DNA from: Verrucomicrobiota bacterium
Lineage (GTDB): Bacteria > Verrucomicrobiota > Verrucomicrobiia > Chthoniobacterales > UBA10450
Length of the DNA: 43,461 nucleotides
Direction: 5' to 3'
NCBI GenBank assembly: GCA_003220055.1
Contig: QHRF01000082.1
Location: 1-43,461 of the forward strand
Both the position numbers and the translations under genes were made by a program. This document shows, piece after piece, positions 5,162 to 34,967 of the stretch (positions are counted from its first letter, which is position 1; each line of letters begins with the position of its first letter). The notes under the pieces are model-generated. The model did no database searches and was not told the origin of the DNA. It saw nothing but the letters and a program-made list of their open reading frames with translations.

Positions 5162-5381
5162 TTGACGCTTCCCCGAAGTTTTGACGTGATCATTTTGCGA
5201 AACGGCGACTTTTCCGTATCGGAAGAGTTACCGGGAATTTAGATCGCCATGCAAACTACGACTTTTGTTTTGCCGAGCGAATTTATAGAATGATGGCTTC
5301 GATGCGCGCACATCCTGAGAGTGATTTGAATTCGTTTCTAAGTTGGCGGCTGTGTTGCTCCGGATTGGGCTTCCGCTGATT
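5162..5381. promoter_or_regulatory. Divergent intergenic region upstream of actA
   Basis: 220 bp between the amidohydrolase start and the actA start. It must hold the promoters for both directions, including that of the ACIII operon. An AT-rich stretch with TATAGA at about 5284-5289 could be a -10 element toward actA, but no convincing -35 element sits at normal spacing. I see no inverted repeat or operator. Confidence 0.35.
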
Positions 5382-6107
5382 ATGGCGAATTTCTTTCCAC
5401 GCTGGTGCAACTGGTTGCCGCTGCAAATGGCAATCGCCGGCATTTTGATCGCGTGCGGATTGAGCGCGGCCACCTGGTATTACGTCACGCCAAAATATAC
5501 CAAGGTAGGCTATCAACCGATCCAGCCGGTGCCGTTCCCGCACGACATTCACGTGACCCAACTCGGAATGGATTGCCGCTATTGCCACAGCTTTGTCGAA
5601 GTTGCGGCGCAGTCTAATGTGCCGAACACGCAGACCTGCATGAACTGCCACTCGCAGGTCCAAAAAGACAACCCGAAGCTGGCGCCGGTGCGGGAAAGCT
5701 GGAAGACCGGCAAACCGATTGAATGGGTGTGGCTCCATCGCACCGTCGATTACGTCTTTTATAACCACGCGGCGCATGTGAATCGCGGCATCAGTTGTTT
5801 CAGTTGTCATGGCCCGGTCAATCACATGGCGACGGTGTCCATAGCCGAACCGCATAGCATGGCGTGGTGTCTCGAGTGCCATCGACACCCCGAAAATTTT
5901 CTCCGGCCCGACGATCAGATCTTTAATCTCGATTGGAAACCAGACGATGTGAAGCCGGCCGCGTTCGTAGCGAAGTACGGACAGCCAAAAAGCGTGACTG
6001 AGGATTGGACGAAGAAGAAGCATCTGACGCAACAGGAGATCGGTCAGACACTGAAGGAACGCTGGAACATCGCTCCGAGCACAAATTGCCAAACCTGCCA
6101 CCGATGA
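5382..6107 (+). CDS. actA: ACIII subunit A: pentahaem c-type cytochrome
   Basis: 241 residues from the ATG at 5382; the frame is also open from an earlier alternative start at 5343. One membrane helix near residues 14-34 anchors a periplasmic domain with five CxxCH haem sites: CRYCH (65-69), CMNCH (86-90), CFSCH (139-143), CLECH (163-167) and CQTCH (236-240, next to the last residue). Five haems and one anchor are the hallmark of ActA, the electron-output subunit of the quinol:cytochrome c oxidoreductase alternative complex III. It is the first gene of the operon and overlaps actB by ATGA. Confidence 0.93.
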   Translation: MANFFPRWCNWLPLQMAIAGILIACGLSAATWYYVTPKYTKVGYQPIQPVPFPHDIHVTQLGMDCRYCHSFVEVAAQSNVPNTQTCMNCHSQVQKDNPKLAPVRESWKTGKPIEWVWLHRTVDYVFYNHAAHVNRGISCFSCHGPVNHMATVSIAEPHSMAWCLECHRHPENFLRPDDQIFNLDWKPDDVKPAAFVAKYGQPKSVTEDWTKKKHLTQQEIGQTLKERWNIAPSTNCQTCHR

Positions 6108-9100
6108 AACGCGTCTTTCAACATCCGCCTGAGCCGCTGACCGGTAAGAAATACTGGCGGAGTCTCGGCGAATACAGCAACACGCCCGAGTTTCGAGAAT
6201 GGCTGGAACGCGAATTCCCGGCCGGCGCTTCGGAAATTAGCGAAGACGAATGGTCGCGTCGCGATTTCATGAAATTGATGGGCGCGTCGATGGCGTTGGC
6301 CGGTCTCGGTCTAACGAGTTGCCGCCGTCCGGAAATGCACCTCGTCCCGTTCACGAAGAGCGCCGAGTGGACGATTCCCGGAAAATTTCTTTACTACGCC
6401 ACGGCGATGCCGCGCCGCACCGGCGCAATTCCGCTGATCGCAACCACGGTTGACGGCCGGCCGATCAAGGTGGAGGGCAATCCGCTTCATCCCGCCAGCG
6501 CCGGCGCCACCGACACATTCGCGCAAGCCTCCGTTCTCGATCTTTACGATCCGGCGCGCTCGCGACGCTTCGTGAATCGCGGCAAAGATTCCAATCGCGG
6601 TGAGTTTGACTCCTACATCGACAAATTGCGGGGTCAGCTTGGATCGAACGGTGGAGATGGTCTGGCTTTCCTGGTTGAAGAATTGCATTCGCCGACTCGA
6701 GAAAGATTGCGAGCCGAATTGGAAAAGGCGTTTCCGAAAATGATGTGGTGCGTCTATGACGCAGGCCTAAGCGAGGCGCAAAATGACGCGACTGTGACAA
6801 GCTTCGGTGAAAATGTGCGATTGATTCCGCGATTCGACCGCGCTGACGTTGTGCTCGCGCTCGACAGCGATTTTCTCGATTGCGGTGAGGGCGATCTCGC
6901 CTCCGCGCGCGCGTTCACCCAGCGGCGCCGCGTAAAATCGGCCGAGGACACGATGAACCGACTCTACGTTGTTGAGAACCGGTTCACCATCACCGGCGCA
7001 ATGGCCGATCATCGCCTGCGCTGTCCTGCCAGCCAGATTCCAGCCTTCACCCATCTGCTCGCCGGCAAAATCGCCGCTGCAACCAGAGACGGCGCACTAT
7101 TTTCGCTTCTCTCCACACTGGCCGGGCCCGCCGATACGGCTGAGTTCGACGAAAAGTGGCTGATTGAAGCGGCCAACGACCTGATCTCGAAATCGGGCGT
7201 CAGCATCGTGCTTGCGGGTGCGCATCAGCCGGTCGCTGTGCAATTACTAGCTTACGCAATGAATTCCGCGCTCAAAAATATCGGGCGCACTGTTGTCGTC
7301 CGGGAGTTTCCGCGCAATCGGAACACGAAAAGCATTCTCCAGCTGGCCGATCGGATGAGTCGCGGCGAAATAAAAACGCTTTTCATTTTCGGCGGCGACC
7401 CGGTTTACAACGCGCCGCGCGTGCTCGCGCAGGATCCCGATAAAAAAACGCCGCTCGATTGGGGCGATCTGCAAAAGAAAGTGCCGGAAGTGGTGCGCCT
7501 TGGCTATCACGAGGACGCAACATCGACAATCAGCCAATGGCACGTCCCGCTCGCGCATTATTTGGAATCGTGGGGCGACGCATTAACCTCGGACGGCGCG
7601 TATTTATCGATCCAACCGATGATTCTGCCGCTCTTCGGCGGTCTCAGCGAAATCGAAATGATGAACGCGTTGCTCGGGAAGCCGAAAGTCGAAGGGCCTG
7701 AGCTCGTTCAGGAAACTTTCCGCACCACGAAACCGCCTGGCGATCTTCCGAGCGCGTGGTCGAAATTCTTACGGGATGGATTCGCGGCGCACGTTCCGTT
7801 GCGAGATCGACCGGTGTCATTTAACGGTGGCGCCGCGGCTTCGCTGGCCCACCAGCTTTGGGCAACAACGCCGGCACCGACCTCGGACTCTCCTGAAATC
7901 GTTTTTGTTCGCAGTTACGCGATGGACGATGGCCGTTTCGCCAACAACGGCTGGCTCCAGGAATTGCCCGACCCGATCACGAAACTGACCTGGGATAACG
8001 CGGCGATGATGAGCCCGAACTTCGCCAAATCGCTCAATGTCGAGACCGGCGATCTGATTCAAATTTCAATTAACGACACGGCGAAAGACACGAACGATCA
8101 AACGATTCGACGCGAGCTCGTAATTGCGGCCTACGTTTCGCCCGGTCACGCCGAGAATTCAGTCACGATTCCGATTGGCTACGGTCGGAAGAAAACCGGC
8201 CCGATCGCCGATGAATCGGGATTTAATGCCTACCTGCTGCGGACCGCGAGCAATCCGCATTTCGCAGTCGCCGATGGCAAGAACATCGAAAGCGTGCGCG
8301 TGACAAAGGTCGGAAAGAAATATCCGCTCTCGTGCACACAAGAGCATTGGAGCATCGAAGGCCGCGGCGTGGTGCGTGAAGCGACCCTGGACGGTTACCG
8401 CGAAGACAACGAGTTCGTGAAGAAATGCGGCGGGATGGATGAGCCGCAATCCGTGATGCCATCCCTCTACAGCCATCCGCCGCTGGACGCGCCCCAGCAA
8501 TGGGGGATGACGGTTGATCTCAATATTTGCACCGGTTGCAGTGCGTGCGTCGTCGCATGCCAGGCCGAGAACAATGTTCCGATTGTCGGCAAGTTACAGG
8601 TCGCGCATGGACGTGTGATGCACTGGCTGCGGATCGATCGCTATTACGCCAGCGCAAAACCATTCGACGAAGACAACGGCGAATTTCCGGAAAATCCCGA
8701 GATGGTGCATCAACCGATGATGTGTCAGCACTGCGAGAACGCGCCGTGCGAAACGGTTTGTCCGGTCAACGCCACCATTCACAGCGAGGATGGGCTCAAC
8801 GTCATGGCCTACAATCGCTGCGTCGGCACCCGCTATTGCGCGAACAATTGCCCGTTCAAAGTGCGCCGGTTCAATTTCTTCGATTACAACCAGCGGCCGA
8901 TCGGGAAAAAGAAAATTGCCGGAGAATTCGGGATTTACCGGGAATACGTCGCGCCGTTCACCGAAAAAGGCGCGCCTGACATCACCAAAATGCAGAAAAA
9001 TCCCAACGTAACCGTGCGAATGCGCGGCGTGATGGAGAAATGCACGTTTTGCGTGCAACGGATTGAGGAGGCCAAAATCGCGGCCCACGTGCGCGCCGGC

Positions 9101-9367
9101 ACGTCGAACAACAACTTGCGGATACCGCGCGACTCGTTCACGAGCGCGTGCGCGCAAGCCTGCCCACACGAAGCGATCACTTTTGGCGACATCAAAGATC
9201 CGGAGAGCAAAGTTTCGAAAATAAAACAGCAGGACCGTAATTATCGGCTGCTCGAATATTTGAATGTTAACACCCGGACGAGCTATCTCGGGCGGATTCG
9301 GAATCCAAATCCGAAAATGCCGGACGCCGACAACATCGGCGTGGCGTGTCCGGGAGAGAAGGCATAA
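6104..9367 (+). CDS. actB: ACIII subunit B: molybdopterin-oxidoreductase-like and Fe-S fusion
   Basis: 1087 residues, starting inside the actA stop codon. The N-terminus carries a Tat-type motif SRRDFMK (51-57) before a hydrophobic run that ends in a cysteine (TSC, about 73), as in Tat-exported ActB proteins. The first ~780 residues resemble a molybdopterin oxidoreductase large subunit; in ACIII this part binds no molybdenum cofactor. From about residue 805 comes a ferredoxin-like part with [45 protein letters not shown] and CAQACPH, enough for the usual 3-4 Fe-S clusters. It should carry electrons from the quinol site on the membrane subunits to ActA/ActE haems. Confidence 0.94.
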
Positions 9368-9467
9368 TGGATTTTCGATTTTCGATTTTGGATTTTGGAT
9401 TGCAGACGTTGGCGAACGTCGATCTTTGGCAGTCGCAACTCAGCAATCAGCAATCAGCAACTTAGGG
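9368..9467. repeat. Heptamer tandem repeats in the actB-actC gap
   Basis: In an operon whose other act genes overlap or nearly touch, this 100 bp gap holds two different 7-bp tandem repeats. Four units lie at 9371-9398 (ATTTTCG twice, then ATTTTGG twice). Four more lie at 9434-9461 (CGCAACT, CAGCAAT twice, CAGCAAC). Both have the same period but unrelated units. They look like short tandemly repeated repetitive sequences inserted into a spacer. No terminator-like hairpin with a T run is seen, so read-through is plausible. Confidence 0.75.
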
Positions 9468-10916
9468 ATGAATGACTGGCCCACAGTGCAGGAAGAAGCT
9501 GCGACGACCTCGGATCGGCCGCTGGCGCGCCCGCCCTTGGTGTTGAATCGGCGCAATTTCAGTTGGATCACCGAGCGAATCTCTGGCGTGGTTGAGGATC
9601 GCGCGCCGCGCTGGTGGTGGGTCTGTTTCACCATCACCGGCACGATCGCGATGTTCGGTTTGTTCTGTCTCGGCTACCAAATTTCTACCGGGGTCGGAAC
9701 TTGGGGAAATAATATTCCGGTTGGGTGGGCCTGGGATATCACCAATTTCGTTTTCTGGATCGGTATCGGACACGCCGGCACGCTCATCTCGGCCATTTTA
9801 TTTTTGCTTCGGCAAAAATGGCGGACGTCGATCAATCGTTCGGCCGAAGCGATGACGCTGTTCGCGGTCATGTGCGCCGCGATTTTCCCGGGCGTGCACG
9901 TCGGCCGTGTTTGGATGGCGTGGTATCTCGCGCCTGTCTGGAACAATTACGGCATCTGGCCAAATTTCCGTAGTCCGCTGATGTGGGACGTGTTCGCGGT
10001 CTCGACCTATTTCACCGTCTCGGTTTTGTTTTGGTACACGGGACTGATTCCGGACCTGGCGACGTTGCGCGATCGCGCGACCACGAAGATTAGAAAGTTT
10101 CTCTTTGGCGTCTTCGCATGCGGTTGGCGCGGCTCCAACCGTAACTGGCGTCATTATGAAATGGCGTATCTCCTCCTGGCCGGCCTTTCCACCCCGCTGG
10201 TGCTCTCAGTCCACAGCGTGGTGTCGTTCGACTTCGCGTCGTCAATCTTGCCGACATGGCACACGACGATTTTCCCGCCCTACTTTGTCGCGGGCGCGAT
10301 TTTCGGCGGTTTCGCCATGGTGCTGACGCTGCTGATTCCCGCGCGCGCGATTTTCAAACTCCACGACATCATCACGCCGCAACACATCGACAAGATGGCG
10401 AAGATCATTTTGCTGACCGGCTCGTTCGTCAGTTACGCCTACGTGATGGAATTTTTCGTAGCCTGGTATAGCGGCAACGCTTACGAGCGGTTCGCGTTTT
10501 GGAACCGCGTCCTCGGTCCCTACTGGTGGTATTGGTGGACCGGCATGTTGTTTTGCAATATTCTTTCGCCGCAGCTTTTCTGGTTCCGCTGGTGCCGGCG
10601 AAACATTCTGGTCGTTTATTTCGTCTGCATGTGCGTCAACGCCGGCATGTGGTTCGAGCGTTTCATCATCATCGTCGGTGGACTCCATCGCGATTTCATT
10701 CCGTCCTCCTGGGGCATTTTTATCCCAACCTGGGTCGACATCTGGACGTTCCTCGGCACGCTCGGGATTTTCACGTCTCTCTTCCTGTTGTTCATCCGGT
10801 TCCTGCCGATGATCGCGATGTCGGAAGTGAAAATCGTTTTGCCGGAAGCGGACGTGCACGCGCATTCGCCTAACGGACATCATCCCGTCGCCGCGGGTGG
10901 CATGGAGCGGACATGA
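9468..10916 (+). CDS. actC: ACIII subunit C: NrfD-like quinol-binding membrane protein
   Basis: 482 residues from the ATG at 9468; the frame is open further upstream, but that part is repeat DNA. About ten membrane helices follow a cytoplasmic N-terminus. Family signatures: [38 protein letters not shown] with [17 protein letters not shown], and [13 protein letters not shown]. These are typical of the large NrfD/PsrC-type ActC subunit, which binds quinol and contacts the Fe-S part of ActB. AGGG sits directly against the chosen start, so the exact start is a little uncertain. The stop overlaps actD by ATGA. Confidence 0.93.
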
Positions 10917-11467
10917 GAACGCCCTCCGGTCATGAAGTTTACGCCATGGGCGCGGAATATCCGAGCCCAGCCGCACTTTACGAAGCCGCCAAAATGGTGC
11001 GCGATGCCGGCTTCAAACGCTGGGATGTGTTTTCGCCCTTTCCAATCCACGGAATGGACGAGGCGATGGGGCTCGGGAAATCATGGTTGAGCGCGGTCGT
11101 CCTTGCCGGTGGCATTTCCGGGTTGCTCACCGCGGTTCTCGTGGAATTTGGCCCGTCTTGGGGTCTTTACCCGCTCATTGTTCATGGAAAACCGTACGAT
11201 TGGAGAACGGTACCGGCGTTTTTTCCGATCATGTTCGAGATGACGGTGCTCTTCTCTGCCTTCGCCGCCTTTTTCGCAGTCCTGATCATGAACGGATTGC
11301 CGCGGCCGCATCATCCGATTTTTAATTGGGAGCGGTTCAAACGCGTGACCAACGACGGATTTTTTCTCGTGATCGAAGCGCGCGATCCGCGCTTCACCGA
11401 ACTGGAAGCGCGCGAGTTACTGGAGCGCAGTGGCGGCCAACACATCACCGTCGTGCACGAGGACTAA
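10913..11467 (+). CDS. actD: ACIII subunit D (DUF3341 membrane protein)
   Basis: 184 residues with two central membrane helices (about 58-80 and 102-126). The N-terminal part ([20 protein letters not shown], then [20 protein letters not shown]) and the segment [22 protein letters not shown] are characteristic of DUF3341, the ActD subunit. In known ACIII structures ActD is a small structural subunit with two helices and no cofactor. The gene overlaps actC by ATGA, and actE follows after 2 bp, so translation is probably coupled. Confidence 0.92.
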
Positions 11468-11469
11468 TT

Positions 11470-12213
11470 ATGTTGCGCGGCTTCCTTCTTATTTCTCTTT
11501 TGCTGACGATCGCGGCCGTGGCCGTGCTCGGGTTCCGTGGAGAAAAAGGCACGAATGAGCCATGGGAAATTTTTCCCGACATGGTGCGACAAATGAAAGT
11601 GCGCGCACAAGCGCCGCTGAATTTCTTTGCGGACGGCCGGGGACCGCGGATGCCGGTCAATGGAACGGTGCCGATCGGTTATGAAATGCCGAAACCTCAA
11701 ACGGTCGGCGCGCCGGAGTCTCACTCCGTCGCTGGTTTCAGTGTCGGCCCCGATTACATCGACACCGGTAAAATGGGCAATAATTGGGGAACCGGAATTC
11801 CGGTTCCGGTGACGGCGGAATTGCTTCAGAGGGGGCGCGAACGGTTTAACATCACCTGCGCGATGTGTCACGGCGCGACCGCGGCCGGCAATGGCATCGC
11901 CAAACAGCACGGCCTGGCCACGGTCGTCACCTTGCAAGACGATCGCATTCGCAAAATGGCCGACGGTGAAATTTTCAACACGATCACGAACGGCAAGAAC
12001 ACGATGATGGCCTACGGGCCGAACATCATGGTCGCGGATCGGTGGGCGATCATTGCTTATCTCCGTGCACTGCAACGAAGCCAAGGCGCGGCGATTGTTG
12101 ATGTCCCACCGGAACATCGCGCCGATTTGGAAAAGCCAGCCGAGAATAAACCGGCCGAAGCGAAACCGGGCGAGAACAAACCGCCGGCCAAACCGGAGGC
12201 GTCCAAGAAATGA
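11470..12213 (+). CDS. actE: ACIII subunit E: monohaem cytochrome c
   Basis: 247 residues. An N-terminal hydrophobic segment (2-20) serves as signal or anchor. There is one haem site, CAMCH at 130-134, in a class-I cytochrome c domain preceded by LLQRGRERFNI and followed by the conserved MMAYGPNI stretch (probable methionine ligand) and DRWAIIAYLRAL. This fits ActE, one of the two cytochrome subunits of ACIII. The last ~40 residues are a low-complexity Pro/Ala/Lys/Glu tail with repeated NKP and AKP units. The start follows actD by 2 bp and the stop overlaps actF by ATGA. Confidence 0.91.
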   Translation: MLRGFLLISLLLTIAAVAVLGFRGEKGTNEPWEIFPDMVRQMKVRAQAPLNFFADGRGPRMPVNGTVPIGYEMPKPQTVGAPESHSVAGFSVGPDYIDTGKMGNNWGTGIPVPVTAELLQRGRERFNITCAMCHGATAAGNGIAKQHGLATVVTLQDDRIRKMADGEIFNTITNGKNTMMAYGPNIMVADRWAIIAYLRALQRSQGAAIVDVPPEHRADLEKPAENKPAEAKPGENKPPAKPEASKK

Positions 12214-13409
12214 GCGATCGTTTACAAAATGCGGCGCCGGAAGGCGAATTTTTCGAGACCGACCGTTTTGCCGGTTTGTCGGTGCTTCTCGGCGTGGTGG
12301 CCTTTGTCGCTTTGGCACTGTGCGGAGCGGGCGCGGCGATTGATCCGACGCAGTTCAGTTTTTCGTGGCTGTTTGCGTTCGGCTTTTTCTTCACGCTTTG
12401 CGCCGGCTGTTTTTTCTGGACGATCGTGCATTATGCTACGGACGCGGACTGGACGGTGGTTGTCCGGCGTCAGCTCGAGAACATCGCCGTGCTCGTCGCT
12501 GTCCTGGCGATCTTTTTCATCCCGATCCTGCTTTTGCGACACCATCTTTATGAGTGGATGAACGTCGCACCCGGAAAAGAGGCGACGCTCGATTCCAAGC
12601 GCGCCTACCTGAATCTCAACTTCTTCATCCTGCGCGCCGCTTTCTTCCTCGGCTTCTTCATCATCGCGTCGCAATTACTCCGGCGATTTTCGGTTCGGCA
12701 AGATAAGGACGGCAATCCGCAGTTCACCATTCGACTTCGCAAAGTCGCCTTCGCGAGCCTTCCGCTCTTCGCGCTCTGTCTGACGTTTGGCGCGTTCGAC
12801 TGGCTGATGAGTCTGAACTACCGCTGGTTCTCGACCATGTTCGGCGTTTACATTTTCGCGGGCGCGGCCGGCAGTTCGATGGCGCTTCTCGTCCTCGTGA
12901 TCACCGCACTCCAACGCGCCGGTTATCTCAAGAACGTGGTCACGCGCGAGCATTATCACATCATGGGGAAGTGGATGTTCGCCTTCTGCGTTTTCTGGGC
13001 CTACATCGGGTTCGGTCAATACATGCTCATCTGGTACGCGAACATGCCAGAGGAGACGCAATATTATCTAACTCGGAATACGGAATCGTGGTGGAGCCTG
13101 AGCATGCTGCTGGTAATTGGCCGCTTCTTTGGTCCGTTCGCCATTTTGCTTTTGCAATCAATCAAAAAGCATCCGCGCCAGCTTTGTTACGTGGCTGCCT
13201 GGATTTTGTTGATGCAGATGCTCGACATTTATCTCGTCGTCTTGCCGGCGCTACATGGAACCGGCGTCCATGTGAGCCTATGGGATTTCGCCGCGCTCAT
13301 CGCCATCGGCGCGACGTTGGCGTTCGCTTACTTGCGCATCGTTGGAAAAACTTCGCTCTTTCCAGTCCGCGACCCGCGCCTGGTCGAATCTTTGAAATTA
13401 GTGAACTGA
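12210..13409 (+). CDS. actF: ACIII subunit F: NrfD-like membrane protein
   Basis: 399 residues with about ten membrane helices. Diagnostic stretches include FWTIVHYATDADWTVVVRRQ, FDWLMSLNYRWFSTMFGVY, HYHIMGKWMFAFCVFWAYIG and FGQYMLIWYANMPEET, which match the second NrfD-like subunit (ActF) of ACIII. In known structures ActC and ActF are homologous; ActC holds the quinol site, and ActF is thought to help in proton movement or stabilise the complex. It overlaps actE by ATGA, and the next gene starts 1 bp after its stop. Confidence 0.93.
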   Translation: MSDRLQNAAPEGEFFETDRFAGLSVLLGVVAFVALALCGAGAAIDPTQFSFSWLFAFGFFFTLCAGCFFWTIVHYATDADWTVVVRRQLENIAVLVAVLAIFFIPILLLRHHLYEWMNVAPGKEATLDSKRAYLNLNFFILRAAFFLGFFIIASQLLRRFSVRQDKDGNPQFTIRLRKVAFASLPLFALCLTFGAFDWLMSLNYRWFSTMFGVYIFAGAAGSSMALLVLVITALQRAGYLKNVVTREHYHIMGKWMFAFCVFWAYIGFGQYMLIWYANMPEETQYYLTRNTESWWSLSMLLVIGRFFGPFAILLLQSIKKHPRQLCYVAAWILLMQMLDIYLVVLPALHGTGVHVSLWDFAALIAIGATLAFAYLRIVGKTSLFPVRDPRLVESLKLVN

Positions 13410-13410
13410 A

Positions 13411-13980
13411 ATGGCCAATACCGAACAATTTCAATCGCCCGCGCCGTTTTCGACGTGGGTCGGCGTTGTCCTCTTGTTTGCGCTTTTCGGCGTAATTGTC
13501 GTGGCCGTGATCGGCCCGGGACCACGCAGCGATACTTACGAACGCATGCGGGCTGAGGAGCGCGTGAAAAAACTAAAGGACGCGCGCGATGAAGATGCCA
13601 AGGCGCTGACCAGTTACGCCTGGGTCGATAAAAACAAAGGCACGGTGCGATTGCCAATCGATCGCGCGATGGAATTAACCGTTGCCGATCTGGCAAACAA
13701 GAAACCCACGTCGGCATACGCGATCACGGCGCCGGAATCATCTGCTGCGCCAGGGGGTGTAGCCTCGGCATCGCCTGCACCGTCTGTTTCGCCGCAAGCA
13801 AGCGGAACGCCGAAACCAACTTCAGTCACAGGTCCAAATTCGCAAGCGCGTGGACAACCCGCCGCCGCCGTAAACCCGCCGGCGGTGCAACCATCAACCC
13901 AACCCGGCGCATCCGCTTCACCGAAAGCATCCGGCGCGGTGCCGACGGCATCACCTTCAACCACTCCAGGACAACAGTGA
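13411..13980 (+). CDS. Membrane-anchored protein with Pro/Ser/Ala-rich tail, function unknown
   Basis: 189 residues: one membrane helix (about 15-36), a short charged coiled-coil-like stretch (TYERMRAEERVKKLKDARDE), then a small conserved-looking block with SYAWVDK (68-74) and RLPIDRAMEL. After residue ~100 it is almost only Pro, Ser, Ala, Thr and Gly. Short proteins with a (S/G)YxWVDxxxGxVRxPIxRAMEL block are known to me beside respiratory and SCO genes, but have no assigned function. It starts 1 bp after actF and precedes the CcoN-like gene by 22 bp, so it belongs to the operon. It occupies the place of the small ActG subunit of some ACIII complexes; I see no sequence proof that it is ActG. 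Confidence 0.7.
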   Translation: MANTEQFQSPAPFSTWVGVVLLFALFGVIVVAVIGPGPRSDTYERMRAEERVKKLKDARDEDAKALTSYAWVDKNKGTVRLPIDRAMELTVADLANKKPTSAYAITAPESSAAPGGVASASPAPSVSPQASGTPKPTSVTGPNSQARGQPAAAVNPPAVQPSTQPGASASPKASGAVPTASPSTTPGQQ

Positions 13981-14002: not shown

Positions 14003-15487
14003 ATGACTCCAGCCGCTGACATCCCTTTAAAAGAACCGACCATTTCGGCAGCCGCCGGCGACGCCGAACAGCTCGAGCGTGCGCGGATCGATGCGTCTAC
14101 GCGCGTGCCGGTGCTGATGTTTTACGCATCGGCGATGGTTTGGTTGCTAATCGGAACGCTGCTGGCCGGATTCGTTTCGTTCAAACTGCATTCACCGGAT
14201 TGGTTTTCGGACGTCAGCTTTCTGACCTGGGGCCGTCTCCGGCCGGTGCACATGAATGTGATGGTTTACGGGTGGGCGTCGATGGTCGCGATGGGAACGG
14301 CGATCTGGCTGATGGCGCGACTCTGTCGGACGACGTTGCGGCACCCGCTGATCATCGTCACTGGCATTTGGTTTTGGAACATCGGTGTAGTGATTGGCGT
14401 AATCGGAATTCTCATGGGCTACAGCACCGGCTACGACTGGCTCGAGTTTCCGCCTTATGCCGCGGTCGTCCTTTTTGTCGCTTACGCGCTGATTATTTCG
14501 TGGGCGGTGTTGATGTTCCGTTTTCGCCGCGGGGATCAGATTTATATCACGCAATGGTATTTGCTCGCCGCGTTTCTCTGGTTTCCATGGCTCTACGCTG
14601 CCGCGCAAGCAATGCTCTTCGTGGTCCCGGTCCAGGGCGTGATGCAGGCGGCGGTCAGCTGGTGGTACGCGAATAATCTCCTCTTCCTCTGGTTCGGCGC
14701 GATCGCTCTCGGGACCGCTTACTACATGATCCCGAAAGTAATCGGTCGCCCTGTTTACAGTTACCATCTCGCCACCATTGGATTTTGGACCTACGCGCTT
14801 TTTTCGAGCTGGACCGGGATGCAGCGTCTGGTCGACGGGCCATTTCCGGCGTGGATGATTACCGCGAGCATCGCGGCCACGATCCTGACCATCATTCCAG
14901 TCGCGACCGTCGGGCTCAATCACCACATGACGATGCAGGGATATTTTCCGGTGATGCGTTACAGCCCAACGCTGCGCTTCACCGTGTTCGGCGCGATGTC
15001 GTACACGGTATTCAGCGTTCTCGGGATCCTGATCTCGCTTCGCTCAACCGCGCGCTATCTGCATTTTACGGAGGCTAGCATCGCTTATTCGCACATGGGT
15101 CTGTACGCGTTTTTCACAATGATCATGTTCGGTTCGATGTATTACATCGTGCCGCGGCTGGTTGGTCGCGAATGGCGTTATGCCACACTGATCAAGCTCC
15201 ATTTTTGGGCATCGGCTTACGGCGTTGGATTGATGTCGTTAATGCTATTGGTCGGCGGATTGACTCAGGGCGCTGATCAAAACGACACGTCGATGACGTT
15301 CATCGAAAGTGTGGCTAGCGTGTTGCCCTATGTGCGCGGCCGGACGGTGGCAGCGCTTTTGCTGACAGTTTCGCATTTTATTTTCGCATTCCATTTCGGG
15401 CTGATGTTGTTTGGTCTTGGCCGCACTTCGACGGTTCCGACCTTCTTGAATCCGGTCGAAGCCGAAGGATCGGAGGAGCACTTATGA
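14003..15487 (+). CDS. CcoN-like haem b membrane protein lacking the oxidase active site
   Basis: 494 residues, about 12-14 membrane helices, clearly homologous to cbb3 oxidase subunit I. Low-spin haem b ligands are present: H83 in GRLRPVHMNV and H364 in AYSHMG. By direct motif comparison with CcoN, the catalytic ligands are replaced: the CuB histidine of WWYGHN is N224 (WWYANN), the two CuB histidines of WAGPHH are Q274 and R275 (WTGMQR), the haem b3 histidine of IGHVHSG is Y362, and the cross-linked tyrosine of the LYIWAG segment is S268. PVYSY around 250-254 and MYYIVP remain CcoN-like. It thus probably binds one low-spin haem and has no O2- or NO-reducing centre. The stop overlaps the CcoO-like gene by ATGA. 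Automatic annotation would call it cbb3 oxidase subunit I; the sequence argues against oxidase activity. Confidence 0.9.
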   Translation: MTPAADIPLKEPTISAAAGDAEQLERARIDASTRVPVLMFYASAMVWLLIGTLLAGFVSFKLHSPDWFSDVSFLTWGRLRPVHMNVMVYGWASMVAMGTAIWLMARLCRTTLRHPLIIVTGIWFWNIGVVIGVIGILMGYSTGYDWLEFPPYAAVVLFVAYALIISWAVLMFRFRRGDQIYITQWYLLAAFLWFPWLYAAAQAMLFVVPVQGVMQAAVSWWYANNLLFLWFGAIALGTAYYMIPKVIGRPVYSYHLATIGFWTYALFSSWTGMQRLVDGPFPAWMITASIAATILTIIPVATVGLNHHMTMQGYFPVMRYSPTLRFTVFGAMSYTVFSVLGILISLRSTARYLHFTEASIAYSHMGLYAFFTMIMFGSMYYIVPRLVGREWRYATLIKLHFWASAYGVGLMSLMLLVGGLTQGADQNDTSMTFIESVASVLPYVRGRTVAALLLTVSHFIFAFHFGLMLFGLGRTSTVPTFLNPVEAEGSEEHL

Positions 15488-16437
15488 AAGGACTCGTCCC
15501 GCTTTTCATCGGCCTGTTTGGAACATTCGCGTTTTCTTGGGTCGGCTTAACGGTGATTCCGAATTGGCAAATTGGCGCGCTCAATCCGCAGACGGATGAA
15601 GAGGGAACAGACGCTTACCCCACTCCGAAATCGGGCATGGCCGATCGCGGCCGGCGGATTTACGCGGCAAACGGGTGCATTTATTGCCACAGCCAGCAAA
15701 TTCGTCCCGATTACGACTCCGCGGATATCGATCGTGTCCGCGACGCCGGGCCATCGCCTGGTCCGAAATGGGCTGAACGCCGGAGCGCCCCGCGCGATTA
15801 TATTTTTGATCGGCCGGTAGTGCTTGGAAAGGAACGAATGGGTCCCGATCTCGCGAATATTGGCAAAGCTGCGCCAACTGAAGAAGAAAAGCCGGCGGCG
15901 GCGCCGCCCGCAAACGCTCCTGCGAATTCGCCTGCGCCTGCGCAGTCACCGCCTGCGAATCCGAGCGCGCCTAAACCGGGAACCAGTGGTTCCCCGGCCG
16001 CACCGGCTACTTCTGCCGCGCCGCCCGCTGCCGCTCTGAATCCGTCACCGGCCGCTTCGGCTTCGCCGAATCCAACCGGTCTACCGCCGGCTTATTCCGA
16101 GGCCTGGCATCATCGACATCTTTATGCCCCGCGCAGTATGAGCCCGGACAACCGGGATTCAACCATGCCGGCTTACAAATTTCTTTACGAGAAACATCCG
16201 ATCAGTGGCGAGCGCTCGGCCGACGCATTGCAACTCGAGGGCCGAGACGCGCCGCCGCCAGGCTGGGAAGTTGTTCCAACCTACGAGGCCAAATGTCTCG
16301 TTGCTTATTTGATGTCGCTCGATCAATCGCATCCGCTCAAGGAAGTTAAGACAGCACCGGGCGGTGCGGCCCCGCCAGCGGGCTCGCCTCCGGCAGCGCC
16401 AGCCGGATCACCCGCGCCTGCGCCACCGAAGAAATGA
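15484..16437 (+). CDS. CcoO-like monohaem cytochrome c with Pro/Ala-rich insertion
   Basis: 317 residues. One N-terminal membrane helix (about 5-26) is followed by a CcoO-type cytochrome domain: GCIYCHSQQIRP (haem site C65-H69; CcoO has CxxCHSQ.IRP), then GKERMGPDLANIG (115-127) and, much later, YSEAWHHRHLYAPRSM and STMPAY (226-231), which carries the probable axial methionine. Between residues ~128 and ~202, where ordinary CcoO continues without a break, there are about 75 residues made almost only of Pro, Ala, Ser and Asn. The C-terminus is also Pro/Ala-rich. It overlaps the CcoN-like gene by ATGA and the next cytochrome gene by ATGA, so the three are probably made together and form one complex. 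Confidence 0.88.
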   Translation: MKGLVPLFIGLFGTFAFSWVGLTVIPNWQIGALNPQTDEEGTDAYPTPKSGMADRGRRIYAANGCIYCHSQQIRPDYDSADIDRVRDAGPSPGPKWAERRSAPRDYIFDRPVVLGKERMGPDLANIGKAAPTEEEKPAAAPPANAPANSPAPAQSPPANPSAPKPGTSGSPAAPATSAAPPAAALNPSPAASASPNPTGLPPAYSEAWHHRHLYAPRSMSPDNRDSTMPAYKFLYEKHPISGERSADALQLEGRDAPPPGWEVVPTYEAKCLVAYLMSLDQSHPLKEVKTAPGGAAPPAGSPPAAPAGSPAPAPPKK

Positions 16438-17219
16438 ACGACCAAACTCCACCTTCCACATCGCTCACCCGCCAGGGGATGGATTATGGCGAAACGTCCG
16501 ACGTTCAGGAAGTGCACGCCGCGATTCAGCGCGAGAAACGCGAACCGCGCGTCGGCCTCGAGCCGCTTTCGATCTGGTTGATCGCTGTTTACGGGATCGC
16601 GATTTTCACCGGCGGCGCTTACCTCGGCCGCTACTCTGGAAATTTTTCCGGTGACGGACTCGATCCGCTCGGCGGACCGCCGCCCGCCAAAAAAGGTGGC
16701 GGTCCGCAAGGACAACAACAGCAGGCTGAACTTTCGCCGCGCGACCGCGGCAAAAAGATTTTCGCGGCCAACTGCCAGACTTGCCACCAAGCGAACGGTC
16801 TCGGTGTTCCCGGACAATATCCGCCGCTGGCCGGCTCGGAATTCACGACTGGCGGTTCGAAGCGACCGGCGATGATTGTTCTCAAAGGTTTGCAGGGTCC
16901 GGTCACGGTGAAGGGGCAGAAATTCGGCAGTGCCGTTATGCAACCGTGGGACAAAACATTGACCGATCAAAAAATTGCCGACGTTCTGACTTACGAACGG
17001 AGCGAGTGGGGGAATAGCGCCAGTCCTGTAACTGCCGAACAAATCGCGGGTTTGCGCAAAGAATTGGCGAACCATCCCAATTCGTACACTGAGCCTGATG
17101 TGTTAGCGGTCCCAGAGAACGATGAGCTTCCCGGCGGTGCGCCCGCGGGCGCACCGCCACCGAAACCAGGCGAAGCCGCGAAGCCTGGTGGCAGCCCGCC
17201 GCCGCCACCGAAATCATGA
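16434..17219 (+). CDS. Membrane-anchored monohaem cytochrome c
   Basis: 261 residues. A cytoplasmic N-terminus of ~43 residues, one membrane helix (about 44-66), a Gly/Pro/Gln linker, and a class-I cytochrome c domain with CQTCH at 114-118, PPLAGSEF, and SAVMQPW with the probable axial Met169. The tail is rich in Pro, Gly and Ala. It takes the place of CcoP in a cbb3 operon but has only one haem and differs in length and layout from dihaem CcoP. It is the last gene of the ACIII operon and overlaps the CcoO-like gene by ATGA. It could carry electrons between ACIII, the CcoN/O-like pair and soluble cytochromes. Confidence 0.85.
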   Translation: MNDQTPPSTSLTRQGMDYGETSDVQEVHAAIQREKREPRVGLEPLSIWLIAVYGIAIFTGGAYLGRYSGNFSGDGLDPLGGPPPAKKGGGPQGQQQQAELSPRDRGKKIFAANCQTCHQANGLGVPGQYPPLAGSEFTTGGSKRPAMIVLKGLQGPVTVKGQKFGSAVMQPWDKTLTDQKIADVLTYERSEWGNSASPVTAEQIAGLRKELANHPNSYTEPDVLAVPENDELPGGAPAGAPPPKPGEAAKPGGSPPPPPKS

Positions 17220-27848: not shown

Positions 27849-29735
27849 ATGGACGCTTCCACTTCTCTTCCCGCAGCCGCGGGACATCACCACCCACACA
27901 CGCACGCCGGGGAACACGAACACCATGAGCTCGGTTGGTGGCGTAAATACATTTTCTCGACCGACCACAAAGTCATTGGGATCCAGTACGGGCTTTGCGG
28001 TCTGGTTTTTCTCTTTTTCGGCTTTTCCCTGATGATGATCATGCGCTGGCAGTTGGCGTATCCCGGTCAGGCGTTACCGGTAATTGGGAAGTGGCTGCCG
28101 TATTTCTTTGGGCCCAACACCATGCCCGACGGCAAAATGACGCCCGAGTTTTACAATTCGCTGGGCGCGATGCACGGCACCATCATGATTTTCTTGGGCG
28201 TCGTGCCGGTGGCGTTCGCTGCGTTTGGAAATTTCGTCGTGCCGCTCCAAATCGGCGCGCCGGACATGACCTTTCCGAAGGTGAACGCCGCCAGTTTCTG
28301 GGCGTTCGGCGTCGGCGGAGTGATCATGTTGACCAGCTTTTTTGTTCCCGGCGGCGCGGCGAAAGGCGGGTGGACTTCTTATGTGCCGCTTTCGGATATC
28401 GCGGACAAAGGCCCGGGGTTCCATCCGTTTCTCAACGGGCAAACGCTGTGGCTCGTCGGATTCATTTTCCTGATCACGTCGTCGCTGCTGGGTGCGGTAA
28501 ATTTCATCACCACCATCATTCAACTGCGCGCCAAAGGCCTGACCTGGATGCGCCTGCCATTTTTCGTCTGGGCCCAGTTTGTCACTGCGTTCTTATTGCT
28601 GCTCGCGTTTCCGCCGCTTGAGGCTGCGATCGTCATGCAACTAATGGATCGGACCGCGGCGACGAGCTTCTTCCTGCCCGCCGGAATGATCGTCAACGGC
28701 GCGCCGCTGCACATCAGCGGCGGCGGCAGTCCAATTCTATGGCAACACCTGTTCTGGTTCCTTGGGCATCCCGAAGTTTACGTGTTGATTCTGCCCGCGT
28801 TCGGAATTGTCGCTGAAATTCTTGCTAACAACTCGCGCAAGCCGCTCTGGGGTTACAAATCGCTCGTTTTCTCGGTGCTCGTGATCGGCTTTTTGTCGTT
28901 CATCGTTTGGGCGCACCACATGTGGCTCACCGGCATGGGCTCGACCGTGAGCGCGTTTTTCCAAACCACCACGCTGCTCATTTCGATTCCATCGGTCATC
29001 ATCCTTAGCGCCTTTTTCATTTCGCTCTGGGGCGGATCAATCCGGTTCACGGTACCGATGTTATGGGCAACCGCGTTCCTTCCCATGTTCGGCATTGGCG
29101 GACTGACGGGTATACCGTTGGCGTTTAATTCAGCCGACCTCTACCTGCACGATACCTATTACATCATTGCGCATTTCCATTACATCGTCGCGCCGGGCAC
29201 GATCTTCGGACTCTTCGCCGGGATCTATTATTGGTTCCCGAAGGCAACTGGCCGCACCATGAACGAATTCTGGGGCAAAGTGCATTTCTGGCCGTCGCTT
29301 ATCTGCATGAACGTGATTTTTCTGCCGATGTTTTTACAGGGAATGCTCGGCATGCACCGCCGCTGGTACGATGGCGGCCAGGGCTGGACCCTTTCCGGCG
29401 AACACATTTGGGGCCTGACCGGCTTTCAATGGAACACGCCGATCTCGTGGGCGGCGTGGATCATGGGTCTGGCGCAAATTCCATTCATCATCAATTTCTT
29501 TTGGAGCATCAAGCACGGTAAAAAAGTGAACGACAATCCGTGGGAAGCCACCACGCTGGAGTGGACCGCGCCTTCACCGCCGCCGCACGGAAACTTCGTC
29601 ATCACTCCGGTTGCTTACCGCGGGCCCTACGAATACAGCCTGCCCGGTCGCGAAAAAGATTTCACCATGCAGAACGAACCGGTCGAGCCGGCCGAGCGAT
29701 CCCGGCGAGCGGCCGAACCGGCATTGGCCCATTAG
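27849..29735 (+). CDS. coxA: Cytochrome c oxidase subunit I (A1-type haem-copper oxidase)
   Basis: 628 residues, at least 12 membrane helices. All redox ligands are present: H109 (AMHGTIM) and H444 for low-spin haem a, H442 (AHFHY) for haem a3, CuB ligands H307 (GHPEVY) and H356/H357 (WAHHMW), and the cross-linked Y311. E309 in GHPEV marks the A1 subfamily with a D-channel. The N-terminus is unusually His-rich (eight histidines within residues 13-26). The family reduces O2 to water and pumps protons. It heads the second respiratory operon; coxC follows after 3 bp. It is the only subunit I in the window with an intact active site. Confidence 0.95.
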   Translation: MDASTSLPAAAGHHHPHTHAGEHEHHELGWWRKYIFSTDHKVIGIQYGLCGLVFLFFGFSLMMIMRWQLAYPGQALPVIGKWLPYFFGPNTMPDGKMTPEFYNSLGAMHGTIMIFLGVVPVAFAAFGNFVVPLQIGAPDMTFPKVNAASFWAFGVGGVIMLTSFFVPGGAAKGGWTSYVPLSDIADKGPGFHPFLNGQTLWLVGFIFLITSSLLGAVNFITTIIQLRAKGLTWMRLPFFVWAQFVTAFLLLLAFPPLEAAIVMQLMDRTAATSFFLPAGMIVNGAPLHISGGGSPILWQHLFWFLGHPEVYVLILPAFGIVAEILANNSRKPLWGYKSLVFSVLVIGFLSFIVWAHHMWLTGMGSTVSAFFQTTTLLISIPSVIILSAFFISLWGGSIRFTVPMLWATAFLPMFGIGGLTGIPLAFNSADLYLHDTYYIIAHFHYIVAPGTIFGLFAGIYYWFPKATGRTMNEFWGKVHFWPSLICMNVIFLPMFLQGMLGMHRRWYDGGQGWTLSGEHIWGLTGFQWNTPISWAAWIMGLAQIPFIINFFWSIKHGKKVNDNPWEATTLEWTAPSPPPHGNFVITPVAYRGPYEYSLPGREKDFTMQNEPVEPAERSRRAAEPALAH

Positions 29736-29738
29736 CGA

Positions 29739-30614
29739 ATGGAAATTCCGTACACAATCTCCACTCGACCGGACACCGGTCTGTGGAACGCGAAGATCGG
29801 CATCTGGTTGTTTCTCGCGTCCGAAGTGATGCTCTTCGGCGGACTTTTTTCCGCCTACATTTTCCTTCGGCTCGATGCGCAGCCGGGCGAGTGGCCGCAC
29901 GGACTTCTCAACGTCCCCGTCGGGACGATGAATACGGCGATCCTGATCATGTCATCGGTCACGGTCGTTCTGGCGTGGGCCGCGCTAAAGATGCGCCGGT
30001 ACAACGCCTACTGGTGGTACATGCTCGCCACCATCATGTGCGGCGTCATCTTTCTTTTCGTAAAGCTTTATTACGAATGGCCGCAGAAGTTTGAGCATTA
30101 TGGTGTTTTCCTCAAACCAAGCGCGCTCGAAAAATATGAGCAGTATCTCGGCAACAATCGGCGGACGGAAAAAGGGATGGAGCCGCGGATCGAGATCAGC
30201 GGCCACTTGCACAATCCGGAAGCGATTAAGGATCCGAGCATCAAGGAATACGAAATCGGGCTCGATCCGGTCTTCGTGGATCCCAACAACCCAACGAACG
30301 ACCGTCCACACTTTCTTTACGTTCCGCCAACCGACCACATCGCGAAGATCGAGAAGGAAGACGTTGAGCGCATTGATTCGTTCGGCCCGTGGCACAGCGC
30401 ATATTTCGCGAGTTACTTCACCATTACCGGATTGCATGGGGCGCATGTGCTCGCCGGCGTCCTGGTTTTCATTTACATGTGGCTGCCGGTCAGTAAAAAA
30501 CTTTACCAACGCAATCCGGAGCATCTGGCTAATCGGGTCGAGGTCTGCGGACTCTTCTGGCACTTTGTCGATCTTGTCTGGATTTTCGTCTTCCCACTTT
30601 TTTATTTGCTCTAA
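29739..30614 (+). CDS. coxC: Cytochrome c oxidase subunit III with hydrophilic insertion
   Basis: 291 residues. The first part (NAKIGIWLFLASEVMLFGGLFSAY with the helix I-II glutamate, then NTAILIMSSVTVVLAWAALK) and the last part (ITGLHGAHVLAGVLVFIYMW, EVCGLFWHFVDLVWIFVFPL) are typical subunit III. Between helices, from about 118 to 213, lies ~95 mostly charged residues that usual bacterial subunit III of ~200 residues lacks. Because it follows the third or fourth helix, this insert probably lies on one side of the membrane as an extra domain. The role of subunit III is stability and proton uptake of the oxidase. It follows coxA by 3 bp and precedes coxD by 3 bp. Confidence 0.9.
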   Translation: MEIPYTISTRPDTGLWNAKIGIWLFLASEVMLFGGLFSAYIFLRLDAQPGEWPHGLLNVPVGTMNTAILIMSSVTVVLAWAALKMRRYNAYWWYMLATIMCGVIFLFVKLYYEWPQKFEHYGVFLKPSALEKYEQYLGNNRRTEKGMEPRIEISGHLHNPEAIKDPSIKEYEIGLDPVFVDPNNPTNDRPHFLYVPPTDHIAKIEKEDVERIDSFGPWHSAYFASYFTITGLHGAHVLAGVLVFIYMWLPVSKKLYQRNPEHLANRVEVCGLFWHFVDLVWIFVFPLFYLL

Positions 30615-30617
30615 GCC

Positions 30618-30959
30618 ATGAACAACCCACCTGACATTTCCCAAGACCCGGCCGAGCACGAGGAATACGCGCATAACGTCCAAAAACACGTGAGAGGATA
30701 TCTCACCGTCGGCGCGCTTTTGCTCGCGTTTACCGGGATCACCGTCGCGCTTTCCTATGTCGATTTCGGCACCCGCAAAGCCAATATTGGTGTCGCTATG
30801 CTGGTGGCCACGCTAAAAGCCGGACTGGTCGCTGCCATTTTTATGCATTTGGCCGCGGAAAAGCGCCTGATCTATCGCGTGCTCATTTTTACCGGGCTTT
30901 TTGTGCTCGCACTTTTCTGGCTTACATTTTTGGCCTGGTACAACCCCGTCGTCCGTTAA
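30618..30959 (+). CDS. coxD: Cytochrome c oxidase subunit IV (prokaryotic COX4 type)
   Basis: 113 residues with three membrane helices. VGALLLAFTGITVALSYVDF, then VATLKAGLVAAIFMHL and a last hydrophobic helix are the standard layout of small subunit IV proteins of caa3/aa3 oxidases, with the conserved KAxLVaxxFMHL motif. It supports assembly and binds no cofactor. Its stop codon is directly followed by the ATG of the next gene. Confidence 0.9.
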   Translation: MNNPPDISQDPAEHEEYAHNVQKHVRGYLTVGALLLAFTGITVALSYVDFGTRKANIGVAMLVATLKAGLVAAIFMHLAAEKRLIYRVLIFTGLFVLALFWLTFLAWYNPVVR

Positions 30960-31169
30960 ATGTCACTCAAAGCGTTCCATATCGTCTTCGTGATCTTTTC
31001 AACGCTGCTTGCGTTGGGTGTGGGCGGCTGGTGTATTTGGGTGAATCTGGTCGAGGACGCGCCGGTGTATCTCGCCGGCGCAATCGCTTCGTTTGCCTGC
31101 GCGCTTGCGCTCGTCGTCTACGGCGTCTGGTTTTATCGAAAAATGAAACAGCTTCGCATCCTCACATGA
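30960..31169 (+). CDS. Small two-helix membrane protein in the oxidase operon
   Basis: 69 residues: two hydrophobic helices (about 6-28 and 36-58) joined by a short acidic loop (NLVEDAPVYL), ending in a basic tail (FYRKMKQLR). No family is recognised. It starts immediately after the coxD stop and overlaps the next gene by ATGA, so it is translated as part of the oxidase operon and may be a small accessory subunit. Confidence 0.72.
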   Translation: MSLKAFHIVFVIFSTLLALGVGGWCIWVNLVEDAPVYLAGAIASFACALALVVYGVWFYRKMKQLRILT

Positions 31170-31444
31170 AAAGATTAACGCCCGTCCGGCTCGGACTAGC
31201 GATCTTGTCGTTAACAACGTTGCTCGTCGCGCAGCAAGCAAGCGCATGTCCGTTTTGTTACGGCGCGAAAGACGGCAAATCGACTGAGCACATGGCGGTG
31301 GCTATTTGGTTTCTTTTCGGCGCTGTGATGTCGGTAATGGGTGGGATTGGCGCATTCAGCTTCAAGATTTGGCGGCATGGCCGGATGCCACTCGAACCGC
31401 ATCAGGAAATCAACGAAGAAGATTTGGACAAATTCGATGAGTAG
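31166..31444 (+). CDS. Small membrane protein with exported CPFC motif
   Basis: 92 residues. A probable signal peptide (LGLAILSLTTLLVAQQASA) is directly followed by CPFC at 28-31, then one membrane helix (about 44-67) and an acidic cytoplasmic tail (EINEEDLDKFDE). The CxxC at the mature N-terminus would face the periplasm and could bind copper or act in thiol exchange for the CuA site; this is inference from its place directly before coxB. It overlaps the previous gene by 4 bp and coxB by 8 bp. No family is named with confidence. Confidence 0.7.
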   Translation: MKRLTPVRLGLAILSLTTLLVAQQASACPFCYGAKDGKSTEHMAVAIWFLFGAVMSVMGGIGAFSFKIWRHGRMPLEPHQEINEEDLDKFDE

Positions 31445-32327
31445 CCTCGCGCTCATTAACGAATTTCTTGGCCAGCCGCCAAACGCCTCCGAGCATGGCT
31501 ACCAGATCGATCACATTCTGGAATTCGCCCACTGGTTCATGGGCGCGTTGTTCTTTGGATGGTCGGCCTTTTTTGTTTTTGTGCTGATCCGATTCCGCCG
31601 GAGCCGCCAACCGAAGGCCGATCATGCAGGTGTTCGCAGCGGAATTTCCACCCACCTCGAATTTTCGGTCGTTTTGATCGAGGCGGTGCTGCTGATCGGG
31701 TTCGCCATTCCACTTTGGGCGAAGCGGGTGAATGAATTTCCACCGACCCAGGACGCGATTCTGGTTCACGTGGTTGGTCAGCAGTTCAACTGGACTTTCC
31801 ACATGCCTGGCCCCGACGGCCAGTTCGGGCGACGTGAGATCGATTTAGTGACGAATTCGAATCCGCTCGGCATCGATCCAAACGATCCGGCCGGCAAAGA
31901 TGACATTGTGGTGCTCGGCGAATTGCATGTTCCCGTCAATCGCCCCGTCATCATTGAGCTTTCTTCAAAAGATGTGATCCACAATTTTTGCTTGCCGCAC
32001 ATGCGCATAGCGGCGGACGCGATCCCCGGCTCGCTCATCCCGATGTGGTTTAAACCGATCAAGGCCGGCAATTATGAAGTGGTTTGCGGTCAGCTCTGCG
32101 GACTCGGTCATTACGGAATGAAAGGAATGGTCGTCGTCGATGAACCGGCTGAATACCAAACCTGGTTAAAAGAACGCGCCGAATTGGCCGGAACGCAGAA
32201 CGCGCCTTCAGCCGCACCTGCGCCGGGCCAACAGCCGCCCGGCGGCGCGCCGAAAACGGAAAATCCCGCCGAGCAACCGCAAAACAAACCCGCCGCGCCA
32301 CCGACCTCGCCAAGTCCTGGCGGTTAA
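31437..32327 (+). CDS. coxB: Cytochrome c oxidase subunit II (CuA)
   Basis: 296 residues from the ATG at 31437; the frame is open from 31341, but that part overlaps the upstream gene. Two membrane helices (about 28-52 and 74-95) and a periplasmic cupredoxin domain with the CuA ligands H182 (VIHNF), C217, C221, H225 and M228 in VVCGQLCGLGHYGM. The usual glutamate between the cysteines, which binds through its backbone, is Q219. QQFNWTF is the conserved aromatic stretch for electron entry. No cytochrome c domain is fused; the last ~60 residues are Pro/Ala-rich. It comes after coxA, coxC and coxD, unlike the common coxB-first order. Confidence 0.94.
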   Translation: MSSLALINEFLGQPPNASEHGYQIDHILEFAHWFMGALFFGWSAFFVFVLIRFRRSRQPKADHAGVRSGISTHLEFSVVLIEAVLLIGFAIPLWAKRVNEFPPTQDAILVHVVGQQFNWTFHMPGPDGQFGRREIDLVTNSNPLGIDPNDPAGKDDIVVLGELHVPVNRPVIIELSSKDVIHNFCLPHMRIAADAIPGSLIPMWFKPIKAGNYEVVCGQLCGLGHYGMKGMVVVDEPAEYQTWLKERAELAGTQNAPSAAPAPGQQPPGGAPKTENPAEQPQNKPAAPPTSPSPGG

Positions 32328-34317: not shown

Positions 34318-34967
34318 ACGCGAGCACGACCACTTTAGATAGCCAGTCATCGAGAACTGCGACGGTTTGGAAGACCGTCCTAATCGCGATTCCAATTCTC
34401 ACGCTGGCGCTCTTGCTTTGGTTGCGACAGCTGGAAGTGACTGCGCTTCGCCAGCGCACGATTTCTTCTTACGGAACGGTTCCCGAATTTGTCCTGGTGA
34501 ACCAAGGCGGACAAAATTTCGGTTCGGCTCAATTGCGCGGCAAAATCTGGATCGCCGACTTCATTTACACCACTTGCCCCGGACCGTGCCCCATGATCAG
34601 CAGTCGAATGAGTGAATTGCAGAAGCCGCTCGAAAAAACGGACGTCCATCTCGTCTCGTTTTCGGTGGATCCGGCGAAAGACACCCCGCAAGTTTTGCGC
34701 GGCTACGCCGAGAAATTGCGGGCCGAGCCCGGCCGCTGGGATTTTCTGACCGGCCCGCAATCGACGATTTACAATTTATCGCGCAACGGGTTCAAGCTTG
34801 CGATCTCGGACGGCGGCGGAGAGAAAGGAATTCCAGTCCACAGCACGCGAATGATTTTAGTGGATCGGCATGGCGCGATCCGCGGTTATTACGACGCGGC
34901 TGAAGCCGACGCGGTCACGAAATTGGTCGCCGACACGACTCATCTCCTGCGCGAGCAGCCGAAATAA
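34314..34967 (+). CDS. sco: SCO1/SenC copper chaperone
   Basis: 217 residues. One N-terminal membrane helix (about 20-38) and a periplasmic thioredoxin-fold domain with the copper-binding TTCPGPCPM (C88 and C92; the SCO CxxxC) and the distal histidine in GIPVHSTRM. SVDPAKDTPQVLRGYAE is a further SCO signature. SCO proteins deliver or reduce the CuA site of subunit II. It is the last gene of the oxidase operon and overlaps ctaB by ATGA. Confidence 0.93.
   Translation: MNASTTTLDSQSSRTATVWKTVLIAIPILTLALLLWLRQLEVTALRQRTISSYGTVPEFVLVNQGGQNFGSAQLRGKIWIADFIYTTCPGPCPMISSRMSELQKPLEKTDVHLVSFSVDPAKDTPQVLRGYAEKLRAEPGRWDFLTGPQSTIYNLSRNGFKLAISDGGGEKGIPVHSTRMILVDRHGAIRGYYDAAEADAVTKLVADTTHLLREQPK

Follow-up and report, generated by a model that had tools for sequence, protein, structure and literature searches.

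A CcoN-like protein without the ligands of the oxygen-reducing centre in a verrucomicrobial ACIII operon, and the apparent recurrence of this loss

An ACIII operon of a Chthoniobacterales MAG, ordered actABCDEF-ORF-ccoNOP, encodes a CcoN-like protein of 494 amino acids (plus strand, 14003..15487) in which all the CuB and haem b3 ligands are replaced. This protein has very probably lost the ability to bind either CuB or haem b3, and without them it should be unable to reduce O2 or NO. We consider it reasonably likely that such an inactive pseudo-oxidase is kept as the membrane core that anchors CcoO and CcoP to ACIII, and comparisons between related clusters suggest that the ligands were lost independently about ten or more times in Verrucomicrobiota. 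The window analysed here, to which positions refer unless a locus is named, is a stretch of 43,461 nucleotides corresponding to one whole contig (C60) of a host genome of 2.08 Mb that is 80% complete.

The ccoN open reading frame starts with an ATG at 14003 and its stop codon ends at 15487. Its product matches PF00115 (COX1) with 204.6 bits and, in phmmer searches, CcoN chains with an E value of 4e-43, while its score against the NCBIfam CcoN model TIGR00780 (176.6 bits) is far below the equivalog cut-off of 583. An AlphaFold2 model of the protein (pLDDT 87, pTM 0.89) superimposes on the CcoN of P. stutzeri (3MK7) with a Z score of 48.6 and 1.8 Å over 444 residues, which corresponds to a CcoN fold. 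The assignment as a CcoN homologue, first made from the sequence alone, was thus borne out by the PF00115 match and by the structural comparison. With a subunit I sequence and a 12-helix fold, the protein would be classified as a C-family haem-copper oxidase subunit I by descent and fold, and not as a functional one by the features tested. A recent origin from a true cbb3 oxidase of the same genomes was rejected, since the true fused CcoNO proteins present in some relatives (L053-L058) are only ~27% identical and belong to a separate clade.

Ligand positions were assigned using a HMMER alignment to the 3MK7 sequence together with a 180-row alignment, and the motifs flanking these positions align without gaps. 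A functional cbb3 oxidase has three CuB histidines, a haem b3 histidine and a cross-linked tyrosine. In the window protein, the CuB positions H207, H257 and H258 (P. stutzeri numbering) are occupied by N224 (codon 14672..14674), Q274 and R275 (codons 14822..14827), the haem b3 position H345 by Y362 (15086..15088) and the position of the cross-linked Y251 by S268 (14804..14806), all on the plus strand. The same positions hold the three FeB histidines and the b3 histidine of NO reductases, which are consequently missing as well. Each of these replacements had been named in the sequence-only reading, and mapping them onto a CcoN of known structure confirmed them all: neither alignment offers another histidine at the CuB or b3 sites of the window protein, and the replaced ligands support the proposal that it is non-catalytic as an oxygen reductase. 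The low-spin haem b pair is retained, as H83 (14249..14251, plus strand; H60 of P. stutzeri) and H364 (15092..15094, plus strand; H347).

Upstream of ccoN, the window contains an adjacent actA-actF set (5343-13409). On the plus strand, it encodes the penta-haem cytochrome c ActA (5343..6107), with five CXXCH motifs in the translation, as also found in ActA homologues upstream of ActB in relatives; the molybdopterin-oxidoreductase-like, Fe-S-containing ActB (6005..9367; Fer4 families, QrcB/QrcC-like, TAT-variant signal); the NrfD-like ActC (9264..10916; PF03916, E 6e-21); ActD (10913..11467; PF11821, E 3e-55); the mono-haem cytochrome c ActE (11326..12213; PF13442, E 4e-13); and ActF (12210..13409), which has no family match and was assigned by its position and its homologues. 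The true starts of ActA, ActB and ActE may be later. Between actF and ccoN lies an unannotated ORF of 189 aa (13411..13980, plus strand) that has no match in Pfam or NCBIfam searches; tblastn detects it in relatives, and homologues occupy the same place in most loci. Downstream of ccoN, both haem c subunits of a cbb3 operon are found on the same strand (15484-17219), each with one CXXCH: a CcoO-like mono-haem cytochrome c (15484..16437; PF02433, E 6e-19; CIYCH) with the Met motif STMPAYKFLY, and a CcoP-like mono-haem cytochrome c (16434..17219; PF00034, E 2e-13; CQTCH). The CcoO proteins of the window's family are ~100 residues longer than those of other lineages (~300-360 versus 200-220 aa) and have a segment rich in Pro and Ala that separates the haem motif from the Met ligand, and the 189-aa ORF and CcoP have Pro-rich C-terminal tails. 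Converging on the end of ccoP, the minus strand encodes a fused FAD-oxidase and Fe-S/CCG protein (17425-20295) resembling the D-2-hydroxyglutarate dehydrogenase YdiJ, with a score below the cut-off.

The window also encodes a complete, genuine aa3-type oxidase on the plus strand, ~10 kb downstream of the ccoN cluster and not adjacent to it, with subunits I, III, IV and II in this order (27849..32327; PF00115 with 438 bits, PF00510, PF03626, PF00116; CtaD/CoxA with 572 bits), followed by the assembly genes ctaA, ctaB and SCO1 (32414..34967, plus strand; PF02628, PF01040, PF02630). The whole host genome has two COX1 matches, and no bd oxidase match was found in this 80% complete assembly.

The replacements are not peculiar to one assembly. 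In the bacterial family of the window, N224 and R275 are invariant (35/35 sequences) while Q274 and Y362 are found in 34 of 35, and they are accompanied by G211F, T215G and S240A (P. stutzeri numbering). Within this family, the dN/dS ratio of ccoN is 0.04-0.08, similar to the 0.04-0.09 of those pairs of intact ccoN genes for which it could be computed (several others failed or saturated and were left out). This conservation and these ratios rule out a sequencing error, chance or a pseudogene, and they support the part of the earlier proposal that invoked selection, in the sense that the altered gene is retained under selection with its replacements fixed in the family. The expectation that homologues would share the same substitutions holds inside the window's family only; other degenerate lineages carry unrelated residues at these places. 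Constraint on ccoN is in part relaxed in these other lineages, since their dN/dS ratios are higher (0.10-0.37). The sequence-only reading had also stressed that both low-spin histidines are kept: this is correct for the window protein but not as a property of the family, where 26 of 34 sequences have both histidines, four have one and four have neither. Relatives at 68-86% identity carry Q, A or Y in place of H83 and/or Y, Q or D in place of H364. One genome of the family (G007) has a second, intact ACIII-type ccoN (L039 / L155) besides its degenerate copy (L052); the intact copy contains one TGA within the matched frame.

A homologue of the window CcoN is encoded by 50 of 58 relatives; at the level of the class, the count is 230 of 286 genomes, which takes in distant true cbb3 oxidases. 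The ACIII-linked proteins are of three kinds, namely intact ones, those of the window's family and other degenerate members; the loci were picked for diversity and not at random, so that the proportions given below are not prevalences. Intact members, which have the six histidines and the tyrosine in 92/92 cases by definition of the class, occur in Opitutales, Pedosphaerales-like bacteria, Chthoniobacterales and a few Planctomycetota, and their genes hold the same operon position as the window ccoN. Among 59 other degenerate members sampled, 38 lack any CuB histidine, 54 lack the b3 histidine and 42 lack both low-spin histidines. Two Chthoniobacterales relatives apparently represent early stages of loss that keep the complete low-spin pair: L064 misses one CuB histidine, and L065 misses the tyrosine and one CuB histidine; both are single MAG sequences in which errors are possible.

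Despite these losses of ligands, the operon around ccoN is kept. ActF is encoded upstream of ccoN in 30/30 loci of the window's family, 49/49 other degenerate loci and 73/81 intact loci, and this gene linkage supports the earlier suggestion that ACIII is the partner of the protein. CXXCH motifs are kept in CcoO in all degenerate loci where they could be read, and in CcoP in essentially all. A strict MPx(Y/F) pattern detects the methionine motif of CcoO in 64 of 78 non-intact loci; it also misses 18 of 77 intact CcoO proteins. The degenerate clusters of one family (f6; L042, L045, L047, L199) have gained c-haems: their CcoP has two CXXCH motifs and is followed by a further cytochrome c gene. 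In another (f15; L169, L170, L173, L206), an extra CcoP-like cytochrome match lies in the actF-ccoN gap. All 53 genomes with degenerate clusters that were tested encode another COX1 protein scoring at least 370 bits. In three genomes (G060, G065, G181), an intact ACIII-linked CcoN is the only COX1 protein, and no bd oxidase match was found in the G065 and G181 genomes. An A-type coxA gene flanks 26 of 50 degenerate versus 4 of 36 intact clusters, a comparison that ignores relatedness.

How many times the ligands were lost was estimated from quick trees with SH-aLRT support only, such that the exact number is uncertain. Taken at face value, the CcoN tree, which groups 63 degenerate rows with an SH-aLRT value of 99, would indicate one ancient loss, after which the degenerate ccoN would have spread into many ACIII operons by replacement. 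This interpretation was set aside on the basis of the neighbouring genes. In a tree of ActB and ActC from the same loci, intact and degenerate clusters are interleaved, requiring 14-15 changes of which at least 12 are forced by starred branches, and an AU test rejects a single all-degenerate clade (p 6.6e-15); the CcoO and CcoP tree is interleaved as well (14-15 changes, at least 9-10 of them forced) and also rejects such a clade (p 2.4e-6). Since both flanks reject it, a single loss would imply that ccoN alone was swapped each time. Moreover, the degenerate CcoNs form long branches, which attract each other, and even the CcoN tree itself places L197 and L064/L065 within the intact members. 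We therefore regard a single loss followed by spreading as quite unlikely. Because the two flanks of ccoN agree and a regain of six histidines is implausible, repeated independent loss appears to be the better account. The window's family has its loss in common with family f6 alone according to the ActB/C tree (92), and additionally with f3 according to the CcoO/P tree (96*).

What, then, may a CcoN protein do without its oxygen-reducing centre? In the model that we favour, it would serve as a non-catalytic scaffold, a membrane core that fixes the c-haem carriers CcoO and CcoP on ACIII. Menaquinol would be oxidised at ActC/ActB, electrons would run from ActB via ActA/ActE to the CcoO and CcoP c-haems and exit from there to a true oxidase (here the aa3 enzyme) or to a soluble cytochrome c. 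The assembly into one complex, this electron path and a purely structural role of CcoN are all predicted from genes, the contact between CcoN/O/P and ACIII being suggested by gene order. The earlier proposal was a non-catalytic haem b subunit, possibly an electron conduit or an assembly partner of ACIII. As a conduit, its low-spin haem would relay electrons between the CcoO/CcoP haems and quinone or another partner. In favour of this, the window protein has both H83 and H364 in a fold that stays CcoN-like around them, and 26 of 34 family members keep the pair, which suggests some use of haem b in this family. However, one or both ligands are lost in the remaining eight family members, including L006 and L007, two members of one genus that both lack the low-spin ligands and between which dN/dS is still 0.055. 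Among the other degenerate members, 57 of 59 show such a loss, the exceptions being the early-stage L064 and L065. A haem b conduit is thus possible for the window protein, but it could not be the general role, as the ligands were repeatedly lost while the gene stayed, and we consider this explanation unlikely. Because some close relatives and nearly all other degenerate members lack one or both ligands, the window protein probably carries its haem b as a vestige or an optional feature.

Fixed in the old pocket, the polar residues N224, Q274, R275 and Y362 could instead have conferred a new activity in redox chemistry or ion movement, for instance as a proton path or as a sensor. They are invariant or nearly so across the window's family, where G211F, T215G and S240A accompany them. 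In other degenerate lineages these places are filled by unrelated residues, so that there is no common new chemistry, which makes such a site very unlikely as an explanation. Still a little less credible is that ccoN is a decaying remnant on its way out, its retention being due solely to its location inside an essential operon: the stepwise loss of ligands and the dN/dS of 0.10-0.37 in some degenerate pairs would fit with this, but nearly all loci, from many bacterial families, have an open ccoN of full length, the dN/dS of the gene is low in the window's family, and its order with CcoO and CcoP is conserved along with the haem motifs of both. Returning to the scaffold model, we lean, if only slightly, towards a broader reading in which the core of an ACIII-linked oxidase underwent some ten or more parallel conversions in Verrucomicrobiota, each yielding a structural arm of ACIII that is metal-poor or metal-free and brings c-haems to other acceptors. 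Stages of this conversion would be preserved: at first one or two ligands are missing, next CuB and b3 are gone but the low-spin site stays, as in the window, and finally no haem ligand is left. It would represent a repeated natural experiment in which a terminal oxidase is dismantled while its electron-carrying subunits stay, and cultivated strains would be expected to have an additional cytochrome arm on their ACIII.

One family with degenerate clusters (f20) carries pmoA in 12 of 12 genomes. In one of its loci (G086, L233:11397-17087), a Sec-dependent nosZ (957 bits) and nosD lie between actF and the degenerate ccoN, and nos genes inside the ACIII cluster have been described in Methylacidiphilum caldifontis (PMC11102522). 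Because of pmoA and of this matching locus, f20 appears to correspond to Methylacidiphilaceae. From the place of nosZ and nosD in G086, the ACIII/CcoOP cytochromes may also feed N2O reductase. The ACIII-linked CcoN proteins of f20 (L231-L238), whose genes are followed by coxA, read SESSHFV or ADAAHQT/V at the seven ligand and tyrosine positions; a single histidine is left at one CuB position and all other haem and copper ligands are lost. No COX1 protein scoring like a true CcoN (360-380 bits) was found in f20 genomes. A cbb3 oxidase beside ACIII has been described in verrucomicrobial methanotrophs (PMC8498564, PMC6688271, PMC10205796) and, in strain SolV, the ACIII-linked cbb3 gene was tied to a high O2 affinity (PMC6688271). 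Judging from its residues, the ACIII-linked "cbb3" of f20 should not reduce O2. If this is true, aa3 and ba3 oxidases would have to account for the low-O2 life of verrucomicrobial methanotrophs, and genome surveys in which cbb3 genes are counted as an indicator of microaerobic respiration would call for similar caution.

Compared with the cbb3 CcoN of 3MK7, the window protein is alike in its fold, its transmembrane helices, its low-spin haem ligands and the N-O-P order of its operon. It lacks the ligands of CuB and of haem b3 as well as the cross-linked tyrosine; its relatives form a clade separate from true cbb3 (~27% identity), and the CcoP of its operon has one c-haem motif instead of two. 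A linkage between ACIII and a C-type oxidase is already known from Opitutaceae and verrucomicrobial methanotrophs, as PMC8498564 reports with reference to Refojo et al. 2010. The window cluster has the same operon with homologous genes; the known system is described as an oxidase, whereas the copies of the window's family and of the pmoA-carrying family are degenerate and many Opitutales copies are intact. For the loss of the active site from many such clusters, we found no report in searches of the open-access literature. In Flavobacterium johnsoniae, ACIII hands electrons directly to an aa3 oxidase within a supercomplex (PMC8552683, PMC8361435). A transfer from ACIII to aa3 is likewise proposed for the window cluster, while the F. 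johnsoniae supercomplex has no described CcoN/O/P module. Enzyme relics without cofactors do occur in respiratory complexes, an example being the molybdopterin-like domain of ActB. As in that case, an enzyme domain would have been retained as a structural part after losing its cofactors; with the degenerate CcoN, by comparison, it is the very core for oxygen reduction that has been retired, and its loss appears to have been repeated, with several stages caught.
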